Of a DNA stretch of 64,000 nt, positions 25,701-49,700 are shown piece by piece. The DNA comes from Ianthella basta. Taxonomy: Eukaryota > Porifera > Demospongiae > Verongiida > Ianthellidae. Both the position numbers and the translations under genes were made by a program. A model generated the notes under the pieces. That model was not told where the DNA came from, did no database searches, and worked only from the letters and a program-made list of their open reading frames with translations. The stretch lies in contig OZ025868.1 of the NCBI GenBank assembly GCA_964019415.1, positions 12,596,623 to 12,660,622 on the forward strand, read 5' to 3'. Each line of letters begins with the position of its first letter. Positions within the stretch are counted from its first letter, which is position 1.

Positions 25701-28700
25701 CATATGCTAACGTGAGTGGGAGTATATTCACCATAAATGTCCTTGCTGTGATGTCCATCACTTTCACTATTTGTAGTACGGAGGCATTGAGGAGATGAAC
25801 ATTTGTGACAACCTTGGTGATCACCTCGTGGGCAATGTATACGTAAAGGTAAGATTTGTTGACCAGGTTGCTCCAGAACAAGTCTTTAGTTGTGTACATG
25901 TATGTATGTATCTAGGCATGTTACCTGAAGTGAGTTGTTGTTTGAACGTATGAATCCCTAATCTGGGCTCTAATATTAATAATTGCATGAGTGACTTGTC
26001 ATCTCAATGTAATCTCCCATCACCTGAAGCCTTTCTGCCACATTCCTGCGATAAAAAAGGCCTTGTCAATGTGTTTAAGTGTCCTACGGCCATACCATGC
26101 TGAATGCACCGGTTCTCGTCTGATCACCGAAGTTAAGCAGCATTGGGCTGGGTTAGTACTTAAATGGGTGACCGCCTGGGAATACCCAGTGCTGTAGGTC
26201 TTTTTTCCTTTCCTTGGAACTCTTCCAATGCCCCTTTTTCTCTTTTATCTATGACTACAAACATGGATGCTACTAGCCACTGTCACCCTTTGTCATCTCT
26301 CAGTGTAATCTCCCATCTCCTGTAGCCTTTCTGCCACATTCCTGCGATATAAAAGGCCTTGTCAATGTGTTTAAGTGTCCTACGGCCATACCATGCTGAA
26401 TGCACCGGTTCTCGTCTGATCACCGAAGTTAAGCAGCATTGGGCTGGGTTAGTACTTGGATGGGTGACCGCCTGGGAATACCCAGTGCTGTAGGTCTTTT
26501 TTCCTTTCCTTGGAACTCTTCCACTGTCCCTTTTTCTCTTTTATCTATGACTGCAAACATGGATGCTACTAGCCACTGTCACCCTTTGTCATCTCTCAGT
26601 GTAATCTACCATCTCTTGTAGCCTTTCTGCCACATTCCTGTGATATAAAAGGCTTTGTCAATGTGTTTAAGTGTCCTACGGCCATACCATGCTGAATGCA
26701 CCGGTTCTCGTCACCCTTTGTCATCTCTCAGTGTAATCTCCCATCTCCTGTAGCCTTTCTGCCACATTCCTGCGATATAAAAGGCCTTGTCAATGTGTCT
26801 AAGTGTCCATACCATGCTGAATGCACCGGTTCTCGTCTGATCACCGAAGTTAAGCAGCATTGGGCTGGGTTAGTACTTGGATGGGTGACCGCCTGGGAAT
26901 ACCCAGTGCTGTAGGTCTTTTTTCTTTCCTTGGAACTCTTCCAATGCCCCTTTTTCTCTTTTATCTATGACTGCAAACATGGATGCTACTAGCCACTGTC
27001 ACCCTTTGTCATCTCACAGTGTAATATCCCATCTCCTGTAGCCTTTCTGCCACATTCCTGCGATATAAAAGGCCTTGTCAATGTGTTTAAGTGTCCTACG
27101 GCCATACCATGCTGAATGCACCGGTTCTCGTCTGATCACCGAAGTTAAACAGCATTGGGCTGGGTTAGTACTTGGATGGGTGACCGCCTGGGAATACCCA
27201 GTGCTGTAGGTCTTTTTTCCTTTCCTTGGAACTCTTCCAATGCCCTTTTTCTCTTTTATCTATGACTACAAACATGGATGCTACTAGCCACTTTCATCCT
27301 TTGTCATCTCAGTGTAATATCCCATCTCCTGTAACCTTTCTGCCACATTCCTGCGATATAAAAGGCCTTGTCAATGTGTTTAAGTGTCCTACGGCCATAC
27401 CATGCTGAATGCACCGGTTCTCGTCACCCTTTGTCATCTCTCAGTGTAATCTCCCATCTCCTGTAGCCTTTCTGCCACATTCCTGCGATATAAAAGGCCT
27501 TGTCAATGTGTTTAAGTGTCCTACGGCCATACCATGCTGAATGCACCGGTTCTCGTCTGATCACCGAAGTTAAGCAGCATTGGGCTGGGTTAGTACTTGG
27601 ATGGGTGACCGCCTGGGAATACCCAGTGCTGTAGGTCTTTTTTCCTATCCTTGGAACTCTTCCAATGTCCCTTTTCTCTTTTATCTATGACTACAAACAT
27701 GGATGCTACTAGCCACTGTCACCCTTTGTCATCTCAGTGTAATCTCCCATCTCCTGTAACCTTTCTGCCACATTCCTGCGATATAAAGGCCTTGTCAATG
27801 TGTTTAAGTGTCCTACGGCCATACCATGCTGAATGCCACCGAAGTTAAGCAGCATTGGGCTGGGTTAGTACTTGGATGGGTGACCGCCTGGGAATACCCA
27901 GTGTTGTAGGTCTTTTTTCTTTCCTTGGAACTCTTCCAATGCCCCTTTTTCTCTTTTATCTATGACTGCAAACATGAATGCTACTAGCCACTGTCACCCT
28001 TTGTCATCTCTCAGTGTAATCTCCCATCTCCTGTAGCCTTTCTGCCACATTTCTGCAATATAAAAGGCCTTGTCAATGTGTTTAAGTGTCCTACGGCCAT
28101 ACCATGCTGAATGCACCGGTTCTCGTCTGATCACCGAAGTTAAGCAGCATTGGGCTGGGTTAGTACTTGGATGGGTGACCGCCTGGGAATACCCAGTGCT
28201 GTAGGTCTTTTTTCCTTTCCTTGGAACTCTTCCAATGCCCTTTTTCTCTTTTATCTATGACTACAAACATGGATGCTACTAGTCACTTTCATCTTTTGTC
28301 ATCTCAGTGTAATATCCCATCTCCTGTAACCTTTCTACCACATTCCTGAGATATAAAAGGCCTTGTCAATGTGTTTAAGTGTCCTACGGCCATACCATGC
28401 TGAATGCACCGGTTCTCGTCTGATCACCGAAGTTAAGCAGCATTGGGCTGGGTTAGTACTTGGATGGGTGACCGCCTGGGAATACCCAGTGCTGTAGGTC
28501 TTTTTTCCTTTCCTTGGAACTCTTCCAATGTCCCTTTTTCTCTTTTATCTATGACTGCAAACATGGATGCTACTGGCCACTGTCACCCTTTGTCATCTCT
28601 CAGTGTAATCTCCCATCTCTTGTTAGCCTTTCTGCCACATTCCTGCGATATAAAAGGCCTTGTCAATGTGTTTAAGTGTCCTACGGCCATACCATGCTGA

Positions 28701-46700: not shown

Positions 46701-49700
46701 TTTTTCTCTTTTATCTATGACTGCAAACATGGATGCTACTAGCCACTGTCACCCTTTGTCATCTCTCAGTGTAATCTCCCATCTCTTGTAGCCTTTCTGC
46801 CACATTCCTGTGATATAAAAGGCCTTGTCAATGTGTTTAAGTGTCCTACGGCCATACCATGCTGAATGCACCAGTTCTCGTCTGATCACCGAAGTTAAGC
46901 AGCATTGGGCTGGGTTAGTACTTGGATGGGTGACCGCCTGGGAATACCCAGTGCTGTAGGTCTTTTTTCCTTTCCTTGGAACTCTTCCAATGTCCCTTTT
47001 TCTCTTTTATCTATGACTGCAAACATGGATGCTACTGGCCACTGTCACCCTTTGTCATCTCTCAGTGTAATCTCCCATCTCCTGTAGCCTTTCTGCCACA
47101 TTCCTGCGATATAAAAGGCCTTATCAATGTGTTTAAGTGTCCTACGGCCATACCATGCTGAATGCACCGGTTCTCATCTGATCACCGAAGTTAAGCAGCA
47201 TAGGGCTGGGTTAGTACTTGGATGGGTGACCGCCTGGGAATACCCAGTGCTGTAGGTCTTTTTTCCTTTCCTTGGGACTCTTCCAGTGTCCCTTTTCTCT
47301 TTTATCTATGACTGCAAACATGGATGCTACTAGCCACTGTCACCCTTTGTCATCTCAGTGTAATCTCATCAATCTCTATATCTTCTTGTTCCTTTTTCTG
47401 TGTTTTATATTCTACAGTTTAAGAATGAGGAGATTGCTGAAAAGGCAGTGATGGCCCTTAACAACCGCTGGTACAATGGTAAGTGTATTGTAGTACACCC
47501 TCATTACATTGGGGTGCACTGATGCTCATGCTCAAAAAATTGTTAATGCAATTATGCAGATTTTCTGTTTGTAAACTTTGTTTGTATTTGTCTTGTTTGC
47601 TTACCTGACCGTGTGATTCTGAATTATATGTGAGCGGACTTGAGCAACGAGGACACTTAGCGCTATTGTTGATTTTGAATTATGGTACTGGGTGGAAGCA
47701 CAGTTGGTGGCACTTTGTAGCGCTTCCATAGCTGCTCCCATTCCTGAGATACACTCGCTCAAAGTACAAAGATATGCTACGTGCTATTATGAGAAAATGC
47801 TCCGTAAATCTATCGTTATTGTACTCCTATACATGCGTAGAGATGGTGTAACTATATTTCCTGGTTTGAAACTCAGAAAAGGACTATGGGATTCAAACTT
47901 GGCCTGGTTGTTTGAACGATACCACAGGTACGAAAGACATAAAATGTCAAATTTACTGAAAACATCACCTGTAGTGACACTTTATACATACGTACATAGA
48001 TCTTGTTGCCATGTTGACGGGCATCTAAGCGCTGAAATTCAATCACATAGACGCACAGCAAGCATTCCGCGGACAAACATGTAGCCAATAGGACGAGCGC
48101 TTGCATCTCGCCAGACCGGCGCCAGTGCATCTAAATGCCGAACATGCACTGTTCAGGTACTCTGCGGGACAGCTATAAACATCGCAGTAGCTGAGGCCAC
48201 AACATATGATGCACAGGTCGCCCGGCTCACTTGTTTCATCAAGAAACAGGGAAAAGCCACAATCCGGCTACGAACCAGAGACGAGAGAGGAACTGGTTAG
48301 CTAAGAGCTGGGAACAGGCTTTGGTTAAAGACACCGCTCTGGGAAACGCTGTGGCTGACGTGACTGAGTGCCTTGTGCTCTAAATCTGAGAGACGCCTCT
48401 TGGTCAGCATTTAACTATTACATAGCACAAAGTGCCCTCTTTTCTCACATCTGCTCGCATCACATATTTGTGGTCATGGAATGGACCTGCTCACATCGCA
48501 TGCAGTCATGGAGTATTGAATGATATAGGGTCACCTTCTCTATAAACATGTTCACGTCCCATTTGTTCAGCAAGTAGGCTTGGTACATTAGACTTTGTCT
48601 TCCAGATTTGTTCAGAAAGCAGCAATAGCTTCTTACTACACTGTCTTCCACCTCCGTCTAAATAGAGGACATCAGCTGTAGTCATAATTGTGTGTGTGTA
48701 CATGATTGACCATTTTGAGAGATGACTGTGTGTTTTGTGCTGACACTGTTAGACCTACGTACATACGTACGTATATCTGATAAGTGAGTGGGCTTTGCGG
48801 CAATGTGTAGGGTTCAAGAGTACATAGCTAACACCTGTTGTCGAGTCCCTCAAGTAATGACTGTGTGTTGTATGTACAGTATGTCGTACACCATTCTTTA
48901 TATCCAGAAGTGTGTAGTGTTATTTGCTGTCTCTTGTCCCTCCATCCACAGGCCAACCCATTCATGCTGAGCTGTCTCCAGTTACTGATTTCCGTGAGGC
49001 GTGTTGCAGGCAATACGAGATGGGGTGGGTTGAATGATGCATCACTGTCCCTTGCCAGATACCCCACGTTCACCAGCTACGCACTAGAGCACACAGCTTC
49101 AAGCTGCCTGCGGGGCAGTGGCTCATCATGTGACTGAGTGCTGTTTGTAATGTATTTCGGACTGGGGCTAAGCTGTGAGCCTGATCAACACTATGGCAGC
49201 AAAGCCAGTGACAGTGGAACATGTATTGCTGCTGGGGGCTGCTGGGCTTCTTCTCGCACCACTCACTGTTGTGTGCTGTTACAAGTGGATAAGGTCACAT
49301 TACAGACTTCTTATACCAATACGCTTGTCAATGCAAAGGACTGTTGTGGTAGAAGATACTGACACATTTCTATAGACTGAAGCACTCCTTGGGGTCTGAG
49401 TACAGCGTTGGGGTGGGGAGTTTCCTCCCATACCTTCCTCTTCCTCTGAGTGATGCAATATGTAAGGTGATATCATACGTACATGCATGTATACTATATT
49501 AGCCCTATCTAGTGAACTACAGCTTCAGACGTATTGGAGAAAACCAAACTACCTGCTTCCACCAGAGTTTGTGGTTGACTACTCCTGGGATGCATCCTTT
49601 TGCATGCATAGGATACTCCTCCGCCTGAGTTGATGCAGCAGCTCACAGTTGTGCATTCCTCAAGTATTTTTCCAACAGCTATGTACTAAGTACTCTTACA

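Follow-up and report, generated by a model that had tools for sequence, protein, structure and literature searches.

Arrays of 5S ribosomal RNA (rRNA) genes are generally regarded as loci of their own that lie outside genes, and the locus described here raises the question of what such an array does when it lies within a protein-coding gene. The stretch of DNA analysed (the window) comprises 64,000 nucleotides of the sponge Ianthella basta (assembly GCA_964019415.1, contig OZ025868.1, positions 12,596,623 to 12,660,622 of the forward strand). It contains the splicing-factor gene U2AF1, and intron 5 of this gene is filled by head-to-tail 5S units that point in the direction of the gene. We consider it likely that this is a major functional 5S array forming a nested gene cluster within a working U2AF1 gene.

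The U2AF1 gene model, on the plus strand of the window, comprises 10 exons between 19,732 and 50,914, with GT-AG boundaries at every intron and a single open frame of 215 residues. Pfam recognised CCCH zinc fingers and an RRM in the protein, above the cut-off. In the protein search, 4,435 of 7,986 scored candidate proteins matched. Among the matches listed, which are the best 120 of the 4,435, the top identity is 97%, the named proteins heading the list are mostly U2AF 35-kDa subunits, and the best named ones belong to the sponges Amphimedon, Ephydatia and Halichondria (81-82% identity). A 913-base contig from a relative (P0001) codes for full-length U2AF1 without introns. It equals the protein encoded in the window at 209 of 216 positions, compared with 202 of 216 for a second U2AF1 gene described below. 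A U2AF1 gene of the type that carries the array here thus seems to be spliced in this relative. As a separate observation, intron 1 carries on the minus strand (window 20500-22700) a stretch that by eye resembles a piece of a retrotransposon gag with what we take to be a CCHC knuckle; Pfam gave no match for the open frame 22,019-22,525 within it.

With regard to the array itself, the Rfam model 5S_rRNA gave 72 matches in the window, between 26,082 and 47,258, all on the plus strand and with 79-117 bits (gathering score 38). Local alignment of one 5S gene resolved 74 units, comprising 67 near-full copies, four that share a 17-base deletion, one whose 5' end is damaged and two fragments, and revealed no minus-strand copy in intron 5. 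The starts of the 5S genes are spaced by 292-297 bases in 65 of 72 steps, a count that leaves out the copy with the damaged 5' end, and Tandem Repeats Finder (TRF) reported a period of 295 bases extending to 47,367. The sequence is identical in 42 of the 67 near-full copies. A first-pass annotation had proposed the array with its 74 units (72 Rfam matches plus the two fragments), its length and direction, and the intron that hosts it (exon bounds 25,848 and 47,418); all of this is confirmed here. Chance cannot be the source of the array and of the gene-model matches.

The window lies in a contig of 16.58 Mb (C1) of an assembly of 209 Mb in 96 contigs, and part of it has a segmental duplicate on another contig (C6:7436001-7466000). 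The duplicate aligns in blocks to window 11,198-52,034, and blocks of at least 500 bases are 79-93% identical. It contains the second U2AF1 gene, which runs from 7,457,976 down to ~7,446,500, is intact and encodes 215 residues, 207 of which are equal to those of the C1 protein. The ratio of replacement to synonymous substitution rates (dN/dS) between the two genes is 0.17, with ~13 synonymous and ~9 replacement changes. Intron 5 of the C6 gene measures 1,609 bases, compared with 21,569 in C1, and holds, besides an inserted stretch, a 5S copy that has decayed, one whole unit (91% identity), a decayed unit (71% identity) and short traces of another. On the left, the two loci align from exon 5 until inside the first 5S unit; their right-hand alignment extends from the array edge (window 47,366) through exon 6. 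As C6 has decayed units in the same intron, with matching intron ends, 5S units were already in U2AF1 intron 5 before the duplication, and the nesting is therefore older than the duplication. The second gene also disposes of the earlier claim that every U2AF1 transcript must cross 74 units transcribed by RNA polymerase III (Pol III), since it is intact and its short intron 5 holds only 5S relics.

To locate 5S genes elsewhere, the genome was searched with a 35-base 5S core, allowing at most three mismatches, so that more decayed copies fall outside the count. This search gave 169 matches (88 on the plus strand and 81 on the minus strand), and the reversed core gave 0 matches in the genome. The matches were placed from extracted DNA in 166 cases (88 of 88 on the plus strand, 78 of 81 on the minus strand) and by eye in two cases near C1:13548140, and one was left unplaced. 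Three arrays account for 160 of the 169: array 1, in the U2AF1 intron, has 72 matches, array 2 has 74 and array 3 has 14. Nine matches lie outside these arrays.

The host of array 3 is RNPC3 (U11/U12-65K of the minor spliceosome; C1:14352880-14370867), for which we obtained a model of 11 exons with one open frame of 386 residues. The array lies within intron 5 (5,452 bases), and the flanking exons stay in frame across it. The exons for the N-terminal RRM precede the array and those for the C-terminal RRM follow it, in the same direction. Proteins named RNPC3 match the host model, and P0121 aligns loosely across the exons flanking the array. The weak spots of this model are the donor after exon 6 (gttttggt) and a 36-base exon 7 that was chosen by hand. 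Intron 7 of RNPC3 also contains two large open frames on the opposite strand (14,363,376-14,367,331).

For array 2, the host is a predicted six-exon gene that is read from the minus strand and encodes 274 residues in a single frame; the array occupies its last intron (23,805 bases). By eye, the gene product combines Ig-like and fn3 parts with a signal peptide and a membrane helix, and Pfam found fn3 in one exon (E 1.1e-5). This host is predicted, with weaker support than the other two, to be a gene for an fn3 receptor-like membrane protein. Its two database matches cover the fn3 and membrane exons only and both look like unspliced genomic readings, so that two exons, the 28-base one ahead of the array and the last one behind it, are a prediction. 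Past its 3' end, at C1:12742000-12748000, lie tandem open frames that by eye resemble intronless seven-helix receptors. If the array 2 model holds, all three large 5S arrays are intronic and oriented with their hosts. The pairing of 5S genes with U2AF1 proposed at first pass stands as far as the array in the U2AF1 intron is concerned, and falls as a unique case, as all three large arrays appear to be intronic and one more of them occupies a splicing gene, RNPC3.

The possibility that arrays 2 and 3 are copies of the U2AF1 locus was considered and rejected. Genome-wide, U2AF1 protein matches were found only at the U2AF1 genes of C1 and C6 and at a weak place on C22; as there is none beside array 2 or array 3, neither array is a copy of the U2AF1 locus. 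The single-copy flanks of U2AF1 match the region 12.66-12.80 Mb only in GT repeats, in 268 bases at 78% identity and in 126 bases at 84% identity, the last of these ~2 kb away from array 2. These matches are taken for dispersed repeats.

Several features suggest that the 5S genes are in use. In array 1, the mean pairwise difference is 0.0092 for the gene and 0.0367 for the spacer (59 units), the gene thus being about four times less variable, and the corresponding values for array 2 are 0.0079 and 0.0472 (71 units). These comparisons cover 59, 71 and 13 units of the three arrays and one C6 unit, as units outside 285-305 bases or lacking near-full neighbours were dropped. The commonest 5S sequence is identical across all three arrays. 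Spacers differ by 6.6-8.4% between arrays and by 2.9-4.7% within them, which fits each array being homogenised separately. A T-run, defined as at least four T within 11 bases past the gene, follows 66 of the 67 full copies of array 1 and every full copy of array 2 (74 of 74) and array 3 (14 of 14). TATAAA is present at -29/-30 in 60 of 67 copies of array 1 and 74 of 74 of array 2. Arrays 1 and 2 have thus kept their independent Pol III signals, both T-runs and TATAAA. From the conservation of the gene, we infer that at least arrays 1 and 2 are working 5S loci.

The sense strand of the three arrays contains no GTRAGT donor, no AATAAA and no ATTAAA, and one acceptor-like match was observed on the sense strand of array 3. 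On the antisense strand, there are four ATTAAA in array 1, and two AATAAA and one GTRAGT in array 2. Selection against such signals was considered as an explanation for their lack on the sense strand and was rejected, as an array is one ~295-base unit repeated.

A number of observations weigh against a working nested array in U2AF1 and against its generalisation to the other arrays. P0001 is the sequence of a relative and not a transcript of this species, and the dN/dS value stands on few changes. TATAAA is absent in 7 of the 67 near-full copies of array 1, and of the 14 full copies of array 3 only 4 have it at the usual place; gene-over-spacer conservation is weak in array 3 as well (0.0194 for the gene and 0.0289 for the spacer, 13 units). 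Regarding the host of array 2, the Ig-like and membrane exons gave no Pfam match, and the splice sites, including those of the 28-base exon, were chosen by ourselves, the last exon being without homologue support.

In the reading that we prefer, Pol III would use the internal promoter of each 5S unit, probably with the aid of the TATA-like box ~30 bases upstream, and would stop at the T-run. RNA polymerase II (Pol II) would cross the entire array in the same direction, and the array would then be removed with the intron by the spliceosome. Arrays 2 and 3 would be nested likewise, in the predicted fn3 receptor-like gene and in RNPC3. After the duplication, the C1 array would have been kept and homogenised by concerted evolution, while the C6 copy would have decayed to relics. 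The sense orientation could be explained most simply as tolerance, as it would avoid head-on polymerases and antisense signals across the host transcript.

Tandem arrays often cause misassembly, and a wrong joining of a 5S array into the U2AF1 intron therefore has to be weighed. However, the longest exact repeat within array 1 is only 1,745 bases, which makes the array placeable by long accurate reads. The flanks and the exon frame are continuous, two more arrays are nested alike, and 5S relics lie in the same intron of C6. Given this shared site, the intact frames and the short exact repeats, misassembly is very unlikely and deserves scarcely any weight. That the intronic array is a dead satellite and no working 5S locus is highly improbable as well. 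5S-derived satellites exist elsewhere, and the deletion copies, the damaged 5' end and the two fragments among the 74 units would suit such a fate. Nevertheless, the variability of the gene in arrays 1 and 2 is roughly four to six times lower than that of the spacer, one and the same 5S sequence is the most frequent in all three arrays, and only 9 of 169 core matches lie outside them, copies with more than three core mismatches being uncounted. The C1 gene could also be the one that is being lost, with the array stopping or spoiling its transcript and the C6 gene doing the work. The C6 gene encodes an intact protein across a far shorter intron 5, and a T-run-filled intron could reduce expression, but the frame and splice sites of the C1 gene are intact, and the relative's intronless sequence is closer to C1 than to C6, so that more of the amino-acid change seems to have occurred on the C6 side. 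We judge this loss to be distinctly improbable.

Another explanation concerns the origin of the 5S RNA, which might be cut from the Pol II intron and not be made by Pol III. The sense orientation in three hosts would agree with this, and arthropod RNase P RNA offers a precedent; nevertheless, the arthropod genes are described in the cited text as lacking Pol III signals (PMC4287351), whereas here nearly all units are followed by T-runs and, in arrays 1 and 2, most have a TATA-like box upstream. There is next to no chance that the 5S RNA arises in this way. More is to be said for a regulatory role of the nesting, in which Pol III activity, array length and 5S-like folds or pyrimidine tracts would tune the U2AF1 and RNPC3 mRNAs and link ribosome supply to splicing. 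A coupling of 5S output to U2AF1 or RNPC3 expression is possible. Pyrimidine runs resemble U2AF binding sites, and array 1 has 137 runs of at least 12 on the sense strand and 0 on the antisense strand. Two of the three hosts are splicing genes, the three arrays are all in sense orientation, and the nesting predates the C1/C6 duplication. However, the 137 runs are not independent facts, because they belong to one repeated 295-base unit, and this unit also occurs in a predicted receptor-like gene without known splicing link. The second intact U2AF1 gene has only 5S relics. Moreover, a sample of three arrays does not allow statistics, and the connection with splicing was spotted post hoc. We therefore consider a regulatory role unlikely. 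In a bolder form, which we regard as quite unlikely, sense-intron nesting would be the rule for 5S arrays in this sponge lineage, kept by selection and tying ribosome supply to splicing: 5S folds and pyrimidine tracts of nascent U2AF1 and RNPC3 transcripts would bind 5S-binding proteins or U2AF, and Pol III traffic would slow Pol II. In that case, the output of one major- and one minor-spliceosome factor would be determined by array length and 5S demand, and the second U2AF1 gene would serve as an uncoupled backup.

A few 5S genes lie outside the arrays (Table 1). Two single genes, at C1:12690126-12690244 and 12701498-12701616, are preceded by no more than 29 bases of the usual spacer. Both lie ~200 bases past the stop codon, as judged by eye, of a tandemly duplicated gene and in the direction of that gene. 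The idea that all single 5S copies are intronic was accordingly dropped, as these two are at most in a 3' untranslated region. An extra pattern search for old-type 5S copies gave, among the matches listed, only places that were already known.

Table 1. Coordinates of the U2AF1 exons, of its 5S-bearing intron and of 5S arrays and single copies. Positions refer to the window unless a contig is given.
Feature	Position	Strand	Basis
U2AF1 exon 1, coding part	19732..19775	+	gene model
U2AF1 exon 2, first CCCH zinc finger	24329..24416	+	gene model
U2AF1 exon 3	24609..24672	+	gene model
U2AF1 exon 4	25300..25376	+	gene model
U2AF1 exon 5, donor gtaagatt	25777..25848	+	gene model
U2AF1 intron 5, 21,569 bases, carries the 5S array	25849..47417	+	gene model
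U2AF1 exon 6, acceptor ttttatattctacag	47418..47478	+	gene model
U2AF1 exon 7	48952..49024	+	gene model
U2AF1 exon 8, second CCCH zinc finger	49852..49914	+	gene model
U2AF1 exon 9	50352..50396	+	gene model
U2AF1 exon 10, RS tail and stop	50854..50914	+	gene model
5S array 1, 74 head-to-tail units in the direction of U2AF1	25996..47367	+	Rfam, TRF, local alignment
39-base 5S 5' fragments fused to spacer	26674..26712; second at 27,387-27,425	+	local alignment
5S copies with identical 17-base internal deletion	27811..27912; others at 30,151, 36,019, 36,576	+	Rfam, local alignment
5S array 2, 74 core matches	C1:12,753,715-12,775,711	-	core search
5S array 3, 14 core matches	C1:14,355,444-14,359,512	+	core search
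Single 5S copy and fragment in RNPC3 intron 3	C1, copy at 14,354,090; fragment at 14,353,896		
Two-copy 5S group, TTTTAG, not TTTAAG, before the gene	near C1:13548140 (~13.548 Mb)		
Single 5S copy, TTTTAG, not TTTAAG, before the gene	C20:5603756		

As for the neighbourhood of U2AF1 in the window, the open frame 11000-12358 (plus strand) is similar to TauD/gamma-butyrobetaine hydroxylase, the open frame 59622-61127 (minus strand) corresponds to a tRNA pseudouridine synthase, and the open frame 55348-55968 (plus strand) gave an HLH match slightly under the Pfam cut-off.

Ordinary animal 5S arrays consist of head-to-tail units with a conserved gene, a variable spacer and a T-run terminator. The present arrays share all of these features, with a unit of ~295 bases. 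In contrast to ordinary arrays, they lie in introns of protein-coding genes and follow the direction of the gene. Animal 5S arrays are described, in the part of the source consulted, as grouped at one or several chromosomal sites (PMC10138776). The nearest parallel is provided by the RNase P RNA genes of insects and crustaceans, which according to the consulted text are embedded in introns, have lost their Pol III signals and need the host promoter (PMC4287351). There too, a normally Pol III-transcribed RNA gene lies in the intron of a Pol II gene; however, that text describes no array, and the 5S units here have kept their terminators and in most cases a TATA-like box. In human genes, L1 elements within introns and nested genes are likewise transcription units inside a host intron; they are reported to cause transcriptional interference, which can take the form of intron retention, exonization or early polyadenylation of the host (PMC3192792). 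The units in question there are L1 and nested coding or non-coding genes, whereas the present case is a 21-kb 5S array. The plant element P5SM also places a 5S-like fold within the transcript of a protein gene, in its case that of TFIIIA, and is reported in the consulted excerpt to bind ribosomal protein L5 (PMC10753412). It is a mimic, whereas the units described here are real 5S genes. A splicing regulator of the P5SM type would use such a mimic as a regulated exon; the sense strand of the present arrays, as noted above, offers no GTRAGT donor. In fission yeast, 5S genes occupy many sites, some in tandem clusters, and take part in recombination, as the consulted section of the source relates (PMC10085805). 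Multiple sites and tandem clusters are thus common to both, but the positions given there are centromeric and gene-flanking, and those found here are intronic. Among the papers listed in the literature search, which covered open-licence papers only and thus does not prove that no such report exists, none was found to describe an intronic 5S array. The present layout is a new form of nested non-coding genes and of 5S arrays.

With a 5S supply that appears to be almost wholly intronic, the sponge genome offers a clean natural test of the sharing of DNA by Pol II and Pol III, of the tolerance of an intron with variable copy number and of the effect of Pol III traffic on splicing. The C1/C6 pair provides a built-in control for such studies, as the same gene is present with a conserved and with a decayed array. 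If coupling exists, the supply of ribosomes and that of spliceosomes would be linked through chromosome layout.

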